A DNA stretch of 64,000 nt, taken from NCBI RefSeq assembly GCF_000238275.3, contig NZ_AHCF03000003.1:1674001-1738000 (forward strand). Direction: 5' to 3'. The translations under genes and the position numbers were made by a program. The stretch is from Pseudoalteromonas undina. GTDB lineage: Bacteria; Pseudomonadota; Gammaproteobacteria; Enterobacterales; Alteromonadaceae. The notes below the pieces were generated by a model. It searched no databases, was not told where the DNA came from, and worked only from the letters and a program-made list of their open reading frames with translations. Position 1 is the first letter of the stretch. Each line of letters opens with the position of its first letter. This document shows positions 57,210-64,000 of the stretch, one piece after another.

Positions 57210-58916
57210 TTAAAAGGTACTCACTGCAATTTCTAAATTACTCACCGCACAGCCATACTGCGCAGCACTAATACGATGATATGCCGACTCAGGCGTGGTA
57301 GATAAACTAATAATAAACTCATCTTGCTGGCCAACAGCCGTTTGTTCTTGGCTAAGGCACATGGCTTGCGTTAAAGAGCGTAATTTTGCATCCGTTAAAA
57401 TGCTGCCAAAACGCTGAACTGGTAAAGGCGGTATTTTAATTGCTGGCAATGCTTGGCTAATACTGCGCTGACTTAAGGTAAAATCGTTATTTTTAATATC
57501 AATCACACTGCCCACAGGCCAGTAAGAGTAACTGTAGGTTTTAGTTTTAGTTTCAGCCTGAGCTTGCTCTGTTGATTTAACCATCACCACACCATTTTTA
57601 CCAATTACGGTCATTAAATTGCCAGCTTCAGATTTAATCACCACTAAGGCTGTGGTTTCGTCTACACCAAAACCGAATGTCGGCTGATCTTGGTTTGCGC
57701 TTAAGTCGTCGAGCAAAGTGCCTAGTCTTAATGTACGGTTTCGCTCGCTAAAGTGTGTATCGAGTACACCGTAACTAAATGTGCCTAAACCCCCAAAGCG
57801 GTTGTAAGTTAAACTATCGCTGTTTGAGCGTTCACTTGGGGCATCAATGGCTTGTGCGCCTTCTTTCAATGCCGACAAGCTAGTGCCATTGGTGATCATC
57901 ACCACATTCCCGGCGTGGGCTTGCCCACCACTTTGCACCGCGGTACCTGCACTTGTTCCAACAATAACAGGGCGAGACTGTAATGCTTTTGTCCAAGGGT
58001 AAGGCTGGTTATTTTCATCAAATAATACTTTTCGGGTTAAGCTTTGATCGCCACCATTAAACATCACACCGGTACTGTTTTTTATTAGCTCTACTAAAGC
58101 GTCGGTGCCTTTTTTACACAATTTATATTCAGCTTGTGTGCGATCAGGGTAAATATGTTCGCGTTGATATAGCCCCATTTCGGAGTGCCTAAGCGTGGTT
58201 AAATCATCACACTTGTTGGTGGTTATTGCTTTAGCAAGCGCAGGGGTTAATGCAAGCCATTGCGAATTTACATTAGGGAAGCTTAGTAATCCTTCGTAAA
58301 AATCAGCAGATTCATAAGGGTCTCTACTTGAGGCGGTAATGGCCAGTATACTCGGGTTGGAGTTATTAACTTTTAAACTACCAGATATAAACTGCAAAAT
58401 CTCTGTCGCCGCCGATTCGCTATTAAGCGCAGTATTTACCTGCTCTTTTAGTCGCTTGTTGTCGCTTTGGATTTGCGCTACTTCAAGCATATCTATTACA
58501 AAATTGTATTCTTGATCCGATAAACTATTGAGCTGTTTACTATCAATGTCACGCCATAGCCATAACAACTCTTTTTTCGATAATGTGGGCGATGACTTAG
58601 CCTGCATTGTTGCTAAATTTTTAATAGTGTTATTTTTAGCTTGGCTATTTTTACTGGGCCATTGTTGCTTTATTTGGCTAATTTTAGTGTGAGAGAGCGC
58701 AAATACATTATGCGTTTTACCCGAGATCTGAGTATTTTTTTCACAGTTTTCAGGGCTTAAACTGGCACATGTTGTGAGAGCTCCACCCACTAAAACAAGA
58801 GTTTGACTAGGCTCTTTTGCGCTTAACTGTAGCGAAAAAGCAATTAAAATTGAGTAAAAAGCGGTTATTATTCGCGATTTAACTAACCGCTTGTTTGGTA
58901 AATTTATTCGTTCCAT
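57210..58916 (-). CDS. Secreted cyanophycinase-like S51 peptidase
   Basis: Cyanophycinases are serine peptidases of family S51 that cleave cyanophycin (multi-L-arginyl-poly-L-aspartate) to beta-Asp-Arg dipeptides. The 568-residue protein has a probable signal peptide (about 1-33, ending LSA-KEP). Family landmarks include VLVGGALTTC at 41-50, MFNGGDQSL with GGDQ at 288-291, the nucleophile Ser322 in VGTSAGTAV, LDTHFSERNRTLRL with DTHF at 386-389, and GFGVDETTALVV at 415-426. It is much longer than CphB (about 270), with an insertion of about 150 residues between the first strand and GGDQ. Its divergent neighbours (TonB receptor, permease, isoaspartyl dipeptidase) support a scavenging role. Confidence 0.85.
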   Translation of the reverse strand: MERINLPNKRLVKSRIITAFYSILIAFSLQLSAKEPSQTLVLVGGALTTCASLSPENCEKNTQISGKTHNVFALSHTKISQIKQQWPSKNSQAKNNTIKNLATMQAKSSPTLSKKELLWLWRDIDSKQLNSLSDQEYNFVIDMLEVAQIQSDNKRLKEQVNTALNSESAATEILQFISGSLKVNNSNPSILAITASSRDPYESADFYEGLLSFPNVNSQWLALTPALAKAITTNKCDDLTTLRHSEMGLYQREHIYPDRTQAEYKLCKKGTDALVELIKNSTGVMFNGGDQSLTRKVLFDENNQPYPWTKALQSRPVIVGTSAGTAVQSGGQAHAGNVVMITNGTSLSALKEGAQAIDAPSERSNSDSLTYNRFGGLGTFSYGVLDTHFSERNRTLRLGTLLDDLSANQDQPTFGFGVDETTALVVIKSEAGNLMTVIGKNGVVMVKSTEQAQAETKTKTYSYSYWPVGSVIDIKNNDFTLSQRSISQALPAIKIPPLPVQRFGSILTDAKLRSLTQAMCLSQEQTAVGQQDEFIISLSTTPESAYHRISAAQYGCAVSNLEIAVSTF

Positions 58917-58952
58917 TATGTTACACTCATGTAAAAAATTATAAGAAATAAC

Positions 58953-58981
58953 TTGCGAGAGCGTCTCTCACTTGCTATAAA
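58953..58981 (+). promoter_or_regulatory. Promoter with palindrome upstream of TonB receptor
   Basis: TTGCGA, 17 bp and TATAAA form a sigma-70 promoter with likely start near 58988. The spacer contains GAGAGCGTCTCTC (58957-58969), an interrupted palindrome positioned like an operator and close to the divergent cyanophycinase promoter (TATAAT on the minus strand at 58943-58938). Confidence 0.6.
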
Positions 58982-59005
58982 AAAAAGGAACTTTAAAACG
59001 CGAGT

Positions 59006-59029
59006 AAGCTAGCACCCATTTGCTAGCTT
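59006..59029 (+). repeat. 9-bp stem-loop in TonB receptor leader
   Basis: AAGCTAGCA and TGCTAGCTT are perfectly paired around CCCATT. It lies near the start of the inferred 280-nt leader RNA and before the possible leader peptide. Confidence 0.8.
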
Positions 59030-59057
59030 TGTCAAAAACCTTTTTGGAAAGAGAATT

Positions 59058-59132
59058 ATGTTTAAAAAAGCAACATTGCTTACAACATATTTCTACTCAC
59101 CACACTACCTTTCGGAGTGGTTTGACGAGTAG
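59058..59132 (+). CDS. Possible 24-residue leader peptide
   Basis: An ATG with a good ribosome-binding site (GGAAAGAG four bases upstream) starts a 24-residue frame beginning MFKKATLLTT and ending LSEWFDE, with three Tyr, one His and several Thr codons. It lies inside the inferred leader RNA of the TonB receptor and is followed closely by a hairpin (CCTCAC/GTGAGG, 59139-59158), the arrangement of leader-peptide regulation. It has no similarity that I recognise. Translation is not proven, and no run of one regulatory amino acid is present. Confidence 0.4.
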   Translation: MFKKATLLTTYFYSPHYLSEWFDE

Positions 59133-59268
59133 CCCACCACCTCACTAATTTCTGTGAGGGGCTCAGCGTGTCATTTCACCATTGCCCTGTCTAAAAACCA
59201 TAATAATTAAAGCCTTAAGAAATATTAAACCTATTTCTGCGCGCTTAAAAAAGACAAAAGGTACTACA

Positions 59269-62205
59269 ATGTTTCGTCAACTAACTATTGCGGCCACAGT
59301 AAGCGCTTTACTGAGCCCTGTCACTTGTGTGTATGCACAAGAAACTCAAACTGATACCAACATTGAACGAGTAGAAGTAACAGGATCTCGCTTAAAAGGC
59401 GTTGATCTGGAAGGCACTATTCCACTAACCGTGTTAGACCAAGATGCAATCAAACGCTCTGGTGCTAATACCATTCATGAATTACTCAAAGATTTATCTG
59501 TATTTAAAGGCGGAAGCGGTACGTTCTCAACCTCTGAAAGTGGTGGTACGTCTACCTCTACACCAGCGGGTCAATCAGCAGCGAGCTTGAGAGGCATGGG
59601 GCCATCAGCAACGCTGACATTAATAAATGGGCGAAGAGTTGCGCCTAGTTCATTTGCTGCAGGTACTGAAAACTTTGTAGATGTGAATTCTATTCCTCTA
59701 GCGGCCATTGAACGTATTGATATTTTAGCCACCGGTGCATCAGCCGTTTATGGTGCCGATGCTGTAGCGGGTGTTATTAACTACATTTTAAAAGATGATT
59801 TTGAAGGCGCTGAAATCAATACTTCGTTTGCCGATAGCTTTGATCAACATGACGAAAGTAAAAAACAATTAAACTTAGTGTATGGTACAAAAATAGGCGA
59901 GAGTAACTTAACGGTATTTGCAGATATATATGACCGTAACGCTTTTAAAGCGACCGATCGTAATTACACGGCCTCTCCCTCTTTAGTGAATGGTTACTCC
60001 TATTTACCTAAGCTGGAGAACTCACCTAATATTTATTATTTCAGCAGCCGAGATGGTAACGAACTTCCATCACCAAACTGCAAAACCGAGTTAGTTACTA
60101 CTGAACTTGATGAACAAATTTGTGCTTACTACCCTAATCAAGATGATTACCTAGAAACGCCATTTGAAAGCCTTTCAACCGGCTTTATGTTTAATAGTGA
60201 GCTTGGTGGTCTACAATGGCATACTGACTTTTTTTACAGCCAGACCAAGGCAAAAGCGTACTCATCGCCCTCACCTATTAACCAAATTAATGACGACGAC
60301 GGCCCGTATGTTTTAGAAGACGCCTTATTTATTTACGATAATGCCGATGGTAGTAATGATTTATTAGATCAACTCTACATTGACCCATTTGATACCCAAA
60401 GTGGTCGAGAAGTGTATGGTTTTGCATTTGATGCGCGCTTTAATGCCCCAAGAACGGTGGAAGTAGAAACGAAAAACTTTCGCTTAGTAAGTAGCCTAAG
60501 TGGTGAAATTGGTGATTGGGGTTGGGAATCTGGTGTTACTCTTTCTCGCTCACGTTCAGAGCAAGAAGCGATTGCAGGGGTTTATAATCGCTACCAGTTC
60601 CATGGCGCGATTACAGGCGAGCTATGTTCAGACGGTACGCTGGCAAGTTATGACGGTACTGACTTAAATTGTGCATCTGGGGAGTTGCTACCTTTTTACA
60701 ACCCTTTCCTTCAAGGCGACGCCGCTAATGATGCCGTTTTGGCAACAGCGCAAGCTCGCCCAACACGCAGTGGAGAAAGTACTGTTTACGGCTGGGATGC
60801 TAACTTTAATGGTGAACTATTTACCTTTAACGACCTACCAGCCTATGCCTCATTTGGGGTAGAAGCACGACGTGAAGAGCTAAGCGACATTCCTTCGCTT
60901 AATTCACAAGCTCAAGCAGACAAAGACTACCTTGTTGATGTATTTGGCTTTGGCTCTAGCTTATCAGAAGCCGATCGCACTCAATATGCCGCCTTTGCTG
61001 AATTAAGTATTTCACTGAGTGAGCAAATAGAGCTACAAGCAGCGGGTCGGTACGATCATTATGATGATTTTGGTGGCACCTTTAATCCTAAAATAGGTTT
61101 GAGCTATCGCCCTACTGACTCGTTAGTTGTTCGTGGCTCATGGTCAACCTCGTTTAGAGCACCATCGTTAACGCAAGCAGGGGTTAAATTAAGAACCACT
61201 CGTTCAACATTTGATTGTGGCGCTAACCAAGCGGTTTCAGAACTATACTGTGCAGGTCAAGGTACTGAGGTCAGTGTTAATTCACTTGAGTTGGGTAATA
61301 AAAGCCTAAAAGCTGAAGAGTCAGAAGCCATTAGTGTTGGTTTTGCGTGGAGCCCAAGTGTTGATACTAACTTAACCGTTGATTATTGGCAGTTTGATCA
61401 CGAAGAAGTGATTGATACCAACATGACTGCAGTACTCGATCGCGCCATTACTGATGCATCACTGCGCCATTGCGGTATTGTCCCAGAAGGCGAGCAAGGT
61501 ATTTCTTACGAAAATGAGTTATGTGGTATAACCGATGGAGAAAATGGTAGCGGCTTAACAATCGAGCAAGATGGCGCTAATTTAACTGGAATTTTAGATA
61601 ACTATCTTGAAAAGTTTCCCCAACGTAAAGATGAAGAATACTTACCTTTATTCCGTGACCACGTCATTCAACTTGAAAACACTGGTACACAAACATTAGC
61701 TGGCATAGACTTTAAGTTTGATCATAGGTTTGTATTACCAAGCGGCGATTTAACCTTTGCCTTTGACGGTACTCATTACCTTGAGTTTGAACGTAATAAA
61801 CCGGGGTCTGACTCGTTAGAGAAGTTGGTAGGAACTTATCGTTATCCTGAAAATATTGCGCGTATGTCAATAGATTGGGAAGCGCAAAATTACTACCTTA
61901 ACTTAGGTGCAAACTACACCAGCAGCTACGAAGATGATATAGAAGGCCTGCGTAGCCGTGAAATTGATGAGCTAGATTCACTTGGCGTATTAGACTCAAA
62001 AGGTGAGCATCAGGTTGATGACTGGCTCGTTTGGGATTTATCAGCGGGTTACTATGTTAATAAATCGCTGACTTTGCGCGCGCGCATCAATAATATTTTT
62101 GATAAAGAGCCACCCACTCTTTATGGTTCAAGCCGTGGCTTTGATTCAATCAACCATAATGCCCTAGGTGCTAATTACAAATTAAGTATTAGTTACCGCT
62201 TTTAA
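59269..62205 (+). CDS. Large TonB-dependent outer-membrane receptor, cyanophycinase locus
   Basis: This 978-residue TonB-dependent receptor has a signal peptide (1-24, ending VYAQE), the TonB box-like IERVEVTGSRL, a plug domain with PLTVLDQDAIKRSG, LRGMGPSATLTLINGRRVAP and DIYDRNAF regions, and a beta barrel ending SISYRF with terminal Phe. Several cysteines (for example in FDCGANQAVSELYCAGQG) may form extracellular-loop disulfides. Its size and style match peptide- or polymer-importing receptors of Alteromonadales. I chose the ATG at 59269 with AAAGG upstream over 59182. It lies between the divergent cyanophycinase-like gene and the permease/dipeptidase genes, so beta-aspartyl peptides are the suggested ligand. 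Confidence 0.87.
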   Translation: MFRQLTIAATVSALLSPVTCVYAQETQTDTNIERVEVTGSRLKGVDLEGTIPLTVLDQDAIKRSGANTIHELLKDLSVFKGGSGTFSTSESGGTSTSTPAGQSAASLRGMGPSATLTLINGRRVAPSSFAAGTENFVDVNSIPLAAIERIDILATGASAVYGADAVAGVINYILKDDFEGAEINTSFADSFDQHDESKKQLNLVYGTKIGESNLTVFADIYDRNAFKATDRNYTASPSLVNGYSYLPKLENSPNIYYFSSRDGNELPSPNCKTELVTTELDEQICAYYPNQDDYLETPFESLSTGFMFNSELGGLQWHTDFFYSQTKAKAYSSPSPINQINDDDGPYVLEDALFIYDNADGSNDLLDQLYIDPFDTQSGREVYGFAFDARFNAPRTVEVETKNFRLVSSLSGEIGDWGWESGVTLSRSRSEQEAIAGVYNRYQFHGAITGELCSDGTLASYDGTDLNCASGELLPFYNPFLQGDAANDAVLATAQARPTRSGESTVYGWDANFNGELFTFNDLPAYASFGVEARREELSDIPSLNSQAQADKDYLVDVFGFGSSLSEADRTQYAAFAELSISLSEQIELQAAGRYDHYDDFGGTFNPKIGLSYRPTDSLVVRGSWSTSFRAPSLTQAGVKLRTTRSTFDCGANQAVSELYCAGQGTEVSVNSLELGNKSLKAEESEAISVGFAWSPSVDTNLTVDYWQFDHEEVIDTNMTAVLDRAITDASLRHCGIVPEGEQGISYENELCGITDGENGSGLTIEQDGANLTGILDNYLEKFPQRKDEEYLPLFRDHVIQLENTGTQTLAGIDFKFDHRFVLPSGDLTFAFDGTHYLEFERNKPGSDSLEKLVGTYRYPENIARMSIDWEAQNYYLNLGANYTSSYEDDIEGLRSREIDELDSLGVLDSKGEHQVDDWLVWDLSAGYYVNKSLTLRARINNIFDKEPPTLYGSSRGFDSINHNALGANYKLSISYRF

Positions 62206-62212
62206 CCACTTA

Positions 62213-62248
62213 GCCGCAAAGCAAACGCTTTGCGGCATTCCTTTTATT
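62213..62248 (+). terminator. Terminator-like hairpin after TonB receptor
   Basis: GCCGCAAAGC and GCTTTGCGGC form a perfect 10-bp stem around AAAC, followed by ATTCCTTTTATT. The T-tract is interrupted, so some read-through to the permease may occur. Confidence 0.65.
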
Positions 62249-62345
62249 ACAGGTCATGGCTACAGTGACACTGCCTATTAAGTGCTAAAGTACGTTTAAG
62301 CGTTTTTTACGCATCAACACAATGACCTTTTATTAAAGTGAAATT

Positions 62346-63749
62346 ATGAAACAAAAACAATTTTCTATGCCCGATGCCAGCATTATTTTGCTGTGTGTGG
62401 CAGTGATTGCCTATACAGCCACGGTATTTATTACCCCCGGGGTATTTAATGCAGAGCCTGACAGCCATACCGTACAGCTTTCACAATATCAAGCCGTTAA
62501 CGACCAACAATCACCACCTGTTTTTGCACAAGGTGGCGACATTGGTTTAGCAAATGTATTGTTTGAAGGCTTAGTGTCGGGTGATAAATATGGTGCAGCG
62601 ATTGGCGTAATGGCGTTTATTTTAATCACTGGCGGTGCCTTTGGCATTATTATGAAAACCGGTGCGATTAATAACGGCATTATGGCACTTATTAATAAAA
62701 CCAAGCGGGTTGAATGGCTGTTTATTCCCTTACTGTTTTTACTATTTTCGTTAGGCGGCGCGGTATTTGGTATGGGCGAAGAGGCTATTGCATTTTGTAT
62801 TGTGCTGCTCCCTATTATGCAACAACTTGGCTACGACGCTAAAGTCACTGTACTTACAACTTACGTGGCCACGCAAATAGGCTTTGCCACCTCATGGATG
62901 AACCCTTTTAGCATTGCTATAGCGCAATCGATAGCTGAAATCCCAGTATTTTCTGGTGCGGGCTTTCGTATGTTAGCGTGGGCTTGTTTTACCCTTGTAG
63001 GCCTCGTGTTTACAATGCGCTATGCAAAACGGATAAAAACACAATCCCAAAAAACGGGTGATCAGCCAACGATTAAACTCAGCCTAGCCGATGCACTCAC
63101 ATTATTAGTGTTTGTATTGGGCATAGCTTGGGTCGTATGGGGGGTGATGGCGCGCCAATATTATATTCCTGAGCTTGCTGCACAGTTTTTTTGTATTGGC
63201 CTTATCAGTGCAATAATTGCCATCGTGTTTAAAAAGCTAACCGCGAATGAGTGCGCGGATGCGTTTAAACACGGTGCACAAGAATTATTGCCAGCGGCGT
63301 TATTAGTCGCACTGGCTAAAGGCATTGTATTACTATTAGGCGGTAGTGATTTAACCACTCCCTCAACTCTCAACACCCTGCTTTATTACTGTGCAAGTAG
63401 CATAGCCAGTGTGCCAGATTACATTGCAGCTTGGGGAATGCTGGTGTTTCAAAGTGTATTTAACTTTTTTGTTTCATCGGGTTCAGGGCAAGCTGCCATC
63501 ACTATGCCGTTAATGTCTCCACTTGGCGATTTGCTCAATGTATCAAGGCAAATTGTAGTATTGGCCTTTCAATTAGGCGATGGATTAACCAACATTTTAA
63601 CTCCCACCTCAGCTAGTTTAATTGGTTGTTTAGGGGTCGTGAAATTAGATTGGGGAGAATGGGCTGCGTTTATTTGGCGCTTTGCTCTAGCACTTTTTGT
63701 ATTAGCAAGCGGCTTTATATTTCTTGCTTACTTTATTAATTATCAATAA
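62346..63749 (+). CDS. YfcC-family basic amino-acid/dipeptide permease
   Basis: This 467-residue membrane protein belongs to the YfcC/DcuC-related family often annotated as a putative basic amino-acid antiporter. About 12 helices are visible, with the conserved segments ITGGAFGIIMKTGAINNGI, GMGEEAIAFCIVLLPIM, and the C-terminal VSSGSGQAAITMPLMSPLGDLL and DGLTNILTPTS. It lies 12 bp before the isoaspartyl dipeptidase gene, so the two are surely co-transcribed. In that setting it would carry beta-Asp-Arg or a similar isopeptide, or arginine, across the inner membrane; this is inference. Confidence 0.85.
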   Translation: MKQKQFSMPDASIILLCVAVIAYTATVFITPGVFNAEPDSHTVQLSQYQAVNDQQSPPVFAQGGDIGLANVLFEGLVSGDKYGAAIGVMAFILITGGAFGIIMKTGAINNGIMALINKTKRVEWLFIPLLFLLFSLGGAVFGMGEEAIAFCIVLLPIMQQLGYDAKVTVLTTYVATQIGFATSWMNPFSIAIAQSIAEIPVFSGAGFRMLAWACFTLVGLVFTMRYAKRIKTQSQKTGDQPTIKLSLADALTLLVFVLGIAWVVWGVMARQYYIPELAAQFFCIGLISAIIAIVFKKLTANECADAFKHGAQELLPAALLVALAKGIVLLLGGSDLTTPSTLNTLLYYCASSIASVPDYIAAWGMLVFQSVFNFFVSSGSGQAAITMPLMSPLGDLLNVSRQIVVLAFQLGDGLTNILTPTSASLIGCLGVVKLDWGEWAAFIWRFALALFVLASGFIFLAYFINYQ

Positions 63750-63761
63750 AAAGAATTTGTT

Positions 63762-64000
63762 ATGTTAACTTTAATTCAAGGTGCAAACGTTTATGCACCT
63801 ACCTACCTAGGCACACAAGATGTTTTAATTGGCGGTGGTAAAATCATTGCTATTGACGAAAATATAATCCTCGACAGCAGTGTACTCGTCAAACGAATTG
63901 ACGGTAAAAATAAGCTTGTTACGCCGGGGTTTGTTGACTCGTTAGTGCATATTACCGGTGGCGGTGGCGAAGCTGGATTTGCCAGCCGCACCCCTGAAAT
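63762..64000 (+). CDS. iadA: Isoaspartyl dipeptidase IadA-like, 3' end cut by window
   Basis: The first 79 residues match isoaspartyl dipeptidase, a zinc amidohydrolase that splits beta-aspartyl dipeptides: LIQGANVYAP, DVLIGGGKIIAI, VTPGFVD and HITGGGGEAGFASRTPE, the last being a hallmark of this enzyme. In E. coli IadA the metal motif reads QHVH; here it reads SLVH, so the first His is Leu61 while His63 is kept. This may define a distinct subfamily or change metal binding. The gene runs beyond the right edge, so most of the active site is not visible. It follows the permease by 12 bp. Confidence 0.87.
   Translation, partial: MLTLIQGANVYAPTYLGTQDVLIGGGKIIAIDENIILDSSVLVKRIDGKNKLVTPGFVDSLVHITGGGGEAGFASRTPE

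Follow-up and report, generated by a model that had tools for sequence, protein, structure and literature searches.

What do four clustered genes at the right end of a 64,000-nucleotide stretch of the Pseudoalteromonas undina genome (the window; contig NZ_AHCF03000003.1, positions 1,674,001 to 1,738,000) do together, and what controls them? The set encodes a secreted S51 cyanophycinase-like protein and, divergently from it, a TonB-dependent receptor, a YfcC-type permease, and the isoaspartyl dipeptidase IadA, all of which carry the motifs or profile matches expected from a previous interpretation of the same DNA (the sequence-only reading). That reading overlooked a 24-codon open reading frame (ORF) between the S51 and receptor genes, and likewise the altered metal site of IadA and the loss of catalytic residues in S51 copies where no operon is present. 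The locus probably serves to scavenge exogenous cyanophycin or its beta-aspartyl dipeptides under leader-peptide control, and the product of the short ORF, which ends in YLSEWFDE, appears to be an undescribed peptide switch by which such operons are activated. The features of the locus, in window coordinates, are as follows.

57210-58916, minus strand: secreted S51 cyanophycinase-like protein, 568 amino acids (aa), with Ser322, His388, Glu420, and Gln291
59058-59132, plus strand: leader ORF MFKKATLLTTYFYSPHYLSEWFDE-TAG, candidate arrest peptide, 24 codons, tail YLSEWFDE
59133-59145, plus strand: C-rich, G-poor stretch directly 3' of the leader stop, candidate Rho entry site (from base composition over 77 leaders)
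59140-59159, plus strand: hairpin CCTCAC...GTGAGG 3' of the leader stop (from the sequence and post-stop fold statistics)
59269 (ATG) to 62205 (stop), plus strand: TonB-dependent receptor, 978 aa, Pfam Plug and barrel domains over cut-off
62346-63749, plus strand: YfcC/DcuC-type permease, 467 aa, NCBIfam NF008611 (606 bits; cut-off, 500)
63762-64000, continuing beyond the window, plus strand: isoaspartyl dipeptidase IadA, 388 aa, TIGR01975, with Leu61 replacing the first metal-ligand His

Linkage of the leader to the operon

Among 108 Pseudoalteromonas genomes, 41 encode IadA (E <= 1e-60), and in all 41 the receptor, YfcC, and IadA genes lie beside the S51 gene, one set being broken by a contig end. 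The same set is found in further genera of the same family and in three other families of the order, so that the conservation check proposed in the sequence-only reading confirmed the four genes as a unit. The leader precedes the receptor gene in each of the 44 syntenic operon loci: a pattern-free listing of ATG-initiated ORFs of 14 to 45 codons, covering the 420 nucleotides (nt) upstream of the receptor, includes it for 42 of them, and the other two leaders, which lie farther upstream, were found with a tail pattern. Tail variants over these loci are limited to WWDE, WFDN, and WFNE, and Met at position -24, Ala at -20, and Tyr at -14 are constant. The exact LSEWFDE-stop sequence occurs in 40 of the 108 genomes, every one of them iadA bearing (the 41st operon genome carries YLSEWFNE), and the 67 operon-less genomes all lack it, a result that applies to the exact pattern only. 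Reversed patterns, used as a control, matched 0 of 108 genus genomes and 2 of 295 and 0 of 398 genomes of the order and phylum samples, respectively, with a longer pattern in the last.

The same tail is also found at a second site in the genus, with a differing N-terminal part. There are 18 such leaders, 17 of which were examined; all 16 that could be judged lie within 500 nt of a gene for a second type of S51 protein, and one is too close to a contig end. Within the genus, the leader accompanies no other regulon. No tail variant is found near the five leader-less iadA loci read (G038, G043, G044, G045, and G047). In the order sample, the leader is present at 17 places in 16 of 295 genomes; iadA lies in the stretch read for 12 of these, and three are the operons of G000, G066, and G054. 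A second leader in G066 (L147) precedes a second secreted S51 protein, and in G223 the contig ends within a gene that, by eye, resembles the neighboring binding proteins. In the phylum sample, all 5 leader-carrying genomes of 398 are inside the Gammaproteobacteria.

A scan of named genomes gave at least 120 matches, of which 80 were made into loci carrying 81 leaders, from records taken as Gammaproteobacteria; the counts for these leaders, and those given below for the 77 distinct ones that form the feature set, hold among the matches listed. The nearest recognized downstream gene encodes a receptor in 49 cases, a solute-binding protein in 18, an S51 protein in 4, YfcC in 2, and none of these in 8, the binding-protein query and two S51 queries for these calls being derived from loci of the same set. 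Pfam searches of 36 first genes yielded 22 Plug, 8 SBP_bac_3, 3 S51 (at E 1e-5), and 2 DcuC domains. IadA or S51 is in view of 65 leaders, only a receptor, permease, or binding protein is in view of 10, and nothing is recognized near 6, which have just 84 to 1527 nt of downstream DNA; where at least 6 kb of downstream sequence is available, IadA is seen in 14 of 16 loci. Across many gammaproteobacterial genera, the genes that follow a leader encode TonB receptors, YfcC, or a binding protein paired with IadA, or are second S51 genes unlinked to the operon, and in split operons each transcription unit has its own copy (L200; L173 with L232).

In Aeromonas- and Halomonas-type loci (L139-L144, L157, L164, L169, L179, and similar ones), the leader precedes a family-3 solute-binding protein gene, followed by iadA where the stretch suffices. 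These loci probably carry out the same pathway with ABC-type uptake.

Codons, stop codon, and downstream RNA of the leader

As in the TnaC/SpeFL class, the element is a short upstream ORF with a conserved C-terminal tail. Its Ser codon comes from both families (TCN in 43 and AGY in 34 of the 77 leaders), which indicates selection on the peptide; judging from these codon patterns, the leader is likely to be translated. The stop codon is TAG in 56 of 77 leaders and in 58 of 295 control frames (Fisher p 5e-18, in a test that counts related leaders as independent), and TGA in 2 of 77 and 117 of 295, respectively, the controls being stop-to-stop frames of at least 300 codons in all six frames of the same loci, not all of which are necessarily genes. 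T directly follows the stop in a single leader and in 68 of the 295 control frames. Positions +1 to +12 after the stop contain 47% C and 13.5% G, compared with 25.5% and 27% in the control, and post-stop 60-mers fold with z < -1.5 in 60% of leaders and 27% of control segments. The TAG bias and this context fit, by analogy with known leaders, a stall at a stop codon read by release factor 1 (RF1) with a Rho site behind it.

The S51 protein and the dipeptidase

The sequence-only reading described the S51 protein as cyanophycinase-like. By alignment, the protein has the Ser-His-Glu triad and GGDQ motif of cyanophycinases (MEROPS S51), with GGDQ at 288-291, GTSAG containing Ser322, DTHF containing His388, and GFGVDETT containing Glu420. 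In the structural model, Ser322 is flanked by a strand (317-321) and a helix (323-328), and the closest of the solved S51 enzymes is cyanophycinase, as that reading would predict. The profiles tell otherwise: the protein scores 77.4 bits against the curated cyanophycinase cut-off of 126.6 (TIGR02069) and 20 against the Pfam Peptidase_S51 cut-off of 23.9, and is thus divergent by sequence. Since the cyanophycinase cut-off is missed, and since the three solved structures nearest to the protein include one, 7uqv, with the title pseudo-CphB, the fold alone is no proof of activity. The protein can be called a putative cyanophycinase from its modeled fold and its residues, and cyanophycin is the presumed substrate of the locus. 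In one relative (G003), an extra S51 protein encoded directly after iadA scores 190 bits, over the cyanophycinase cut-off.

IadA, completed from the genome sequence to the right of the window (L002:6763-7929), scores 442 bits on TIGR01975 (cut-off, 331). It belongs to the same family as the solved enzymes from E. coli (1onw) and L. mucor (8dqn) and keeps the other four metal-ligand His/Glu residues and the active-site Asp but, in contrast to those two, has Leu for the first His of HxH. Alignment shows this replacement in each of the 89 IadA stretches read (77 distinct) that are linked to a leader or an operon, whereas among five leader-less IadAs three have His and two have Leu.

Proposed mechanism and alternative explanations

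In the pathway proposed here, the secreted S51 enzyme would act outside the cytoplasm to cleave the polymer, the products would cross the outer membrane through the TonB receptor and the inner membrane through YfcC, and IadA would split beta-Asp-X. A ligand inside the cell, either a beta-aspartyl dipeptide or one of the amino acids arginine and aspartate, would be caught together with the nascent YLSEWFDE tail, so that the ribosome on the leader would stall with the UAG stop codon in its A site. The stalled ribosome would deny Rho access to the C-rich RNA that follows the stop, allowing transcription to reach the receptor, permease, and dipeptidase genes. In its most general form, which appears to us evenly poised between right and wrong, the proposal is that YLSEWFDE-stop defines a new family of nascent-chain sensors, in which the ribosome together with the tail would bind a beta-aspartyl dipeptide, or the product of one, and prevent RF1 from acting at UAG, thereby commanding in cis, at each transcription unit, a gammaproteobacterial regulon for eating cyanophycin that comprises the receptor, a permease or ABC uptake, a dipeptidase with an altered metal site, and secreted S51 enzymes.

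Several observations weigh against this proposal. On the enzyme side, they include the sub-threshold profile score of the window S51 protein, its pseudo-CphB relative, and the absence of a complete two-metal HxH site from IadA. Both second-site S51 proteins tested pass the Pfam S51 cut-off and have a PPC domain, yet they too remain, at 83 bits, under the curated cyanophycinase cut-off, and many leader loci of the Halomonas and Aeromonas types have no S51 gene within the available stretch. On the leader side, conservation of the tail among the 77 leaders is by construction, as the search pattern for named genomes fixes the last eight residues, and Met at -24 is present in 53 of them, the N terminus differing outside the Alteromonadales type. 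The composition of the control frames and the relatedness of the leaders bear on the stop-codon statistics, and the 27% of control segments that also fold well on the hairpin. U-run terminators are rare (6 of 78 leaders), and the leader end pairs with the RNA after the stop no better than expected by chance (z +0.4), which leaves base composition and analogy as the grounds for the transcription step.

Because many leader loci lack an S51 gene in the available stretch, the leader may respond to beta-aspartyl peptides in general. The locus might then take up beta-aspartyl (isoaspartyl) peptides from aged protein rather than cyanophycin specifically, with the leader sensing such peptides or aspartate; this explanation, which would also accommodate the solute-binding-protein/iadA pairs preceded by leaders and the sub-threshold S51 score, is a serious one that we nevertheless regard as unlikely. 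A different question is whether the nascent chain captures any ligand at all. Leaders of such length before amino-acid genes often work by attenuation or coupling, and a hairpin often lies 3' of this leader's stop. Ordinary attenuation on the supply of charged tRNA, or translational coupling, is nonetheless rather improbable here: the leaders read contain no run of Arg, Asp, or any other single codon, and conservation is concentrated in the tail, whose Ser is encoded by either codon family. Nor would a mechanism that responds to tRNA supply require the bias seen in the stop codon.

The conserved stretch could also be an RNA element, riboswitch-like, that is open as a reading frame by chance. 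The Asp codon is GAC in 76 of the 77 leaders, a hint of constraint at the RNA level, but Rfam is empty at the window leader (E up to 1) and at the leader in 16 further loci (gathering scores), synonymous variation extends to Ser codons across TCN and AGY, and all 44 operon loci retain an ATG at codon -24. With first- and second-site leaders sharing a tail behind different N-terminal parts, an RNA element seems very improbable.

S51 homologs in genomes without the operon

Close S51 homologs are present in 72 of the 108 Pseudoalteromonas genomes (74 matches minus 2 genomes with a distant one only). The catalytic Ser322 is kept in all 41 operon-linked copies and gone, mostly in favor of Gly, in 29 of the 31 operon-less ones, the exceptions being G128, with a broken frame, and G104, whose copy shares 94% identity with the window protein; no IadA (E <= 1e-60) was found in the operon-less genomes of the genus. 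On the tree, the operon state requires 6 changes, starred branches forcing 5 of them, and the Ser state requires 4. Median dN/dS is 0.18 among the lost-Ser copies (24 pairs) and 0.12 among the operon copies (57 pairs), low values from which it appears that the former are retained as proteins without the nucleophile. As judged from their sequences, the operon-less homologs are conserved pseudoenzymes.

A distant S51-like family (L058-L063) lacks both the Ser and the His, and each member adjoins a large gene resembling a histidine kinase gene of the window; the neighbors of L060 and L061, the two checked with Pfam, are ArcB-like hybrid kinases. This family may be a sensor partner of the adjoining kinase.

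Genomic surroundings

The sequence-only reading proposed to look to the right for genes of arginine or aspartate catabolism: by eye and profile, none is found in the 11 kb read, which encode an RND efflux pump, a helix-turn-helix (HTH) regulator, another TonB receptor, and an M14-type hydrolase. The hydrolase (L002:16949-17863) adjoins that other receptor and weakly resembles N-acetylornithine deacetylase, an annotation class within which cyanophycin dipeptide hydrolases have been reported (PNAS 2023, via PMC10206079). Elsewhere, the genome carries two copies of arginine succinyltransferase (AST pathway) that score over cut-off, so arginine could be used. The NCBI name of the permease at 62346-63749 is putative basic amino acid antiporter. 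For cyanophycin synthetase (TIGR02068), 2 of 60 genomes have a match over cut-off, and this one is not among them.

Relation to described systems

The sequence-only reading held a dedicated TonB receptor and permease for cyanophycin or its dipeptides to be new, and this main claim to novelty falls, since both the locus type and the TonB prediction are in print. A "cyanophycin utilization locus" comprising cyanophycinase, iadA, and a transporter was described by Sharon and Schmeing (2023; PMC10206079), citing Ben Hania 2017, and cyanophycin was predicted from gene neighborhood as a TonB-receptor substrate in Citromicrobium (Tang 2012; PMC3400609). Cyanophycinases have further been noted in P. 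tunicata (a putative secreted enzyme; PMC2536512), Thalassotalea (PMC7564069), and a Balneolaeota satellite of cyanobacteria (PMC6243061). The present locus shares with the cyanophycin utilization locus the clustering of a putative cyanophycinase gene with iadA and transporter genes and, by our proposal, the scavenging of external cyanophycin; its genome has no CphA1 over cut-off, and its S51 protein is under the cyanophycinase profile cut-off. Compared with the locus of Ben Hania 2017, as represented in the citing paper, the set here includes a TonB receptor, YfcC, and the leader. The Citromicrobium case is a single neighborhood, for which the available part of the paper mentions no iadA, YfcC, or leader. 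The locus adds a member to a kind already described. What sets it apart is the leader: a short ORF, conserved and linked to a single regulon, whose stop codon and downstream context are both biased.

For the leader itself, the nearest parallels are TnaC, which senses Trp, also has 24 residues, stalls at its stop codon, and has a Rho site directly after it, and SpeFL, which senses ornithine and stalls at its stop codon with RF1 action inhibited (both as excerpted from PMC8429421). The leader stop is mostly UAG here and UGA in TnaC, the regulon and presumed ligand differ from those of both, and the present leader is known from sequence alone. Among open-licence papers, which is not proof of absence, the string SEWFDE does not occur, and the matches listed in leader-peptide searches, in two of them the top 10 of 276 and 15 of 574, include no description of a YLSEWFDE leader. 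To our knowledge, the leader has no resemblance to the TnaC or SpeFL sequences, and few bacterial arrest peptides are known to us that sense a metabolite.

If the proposal is true, a leader with a strict tail, a bias toward UAG, and a defined regulon would add a metabolite-sensing arrest peptide with a presumably different ligand. As a marker, the leader finds operons for uptake of cyanophycin or beta-aspartyl peptides that profile cut-offs miss, such as those with a divergent S51 protein or of the binding-protein/iadA type, and this use bears on the recycling of cyanobacterial nitrogen by marine bacteria.

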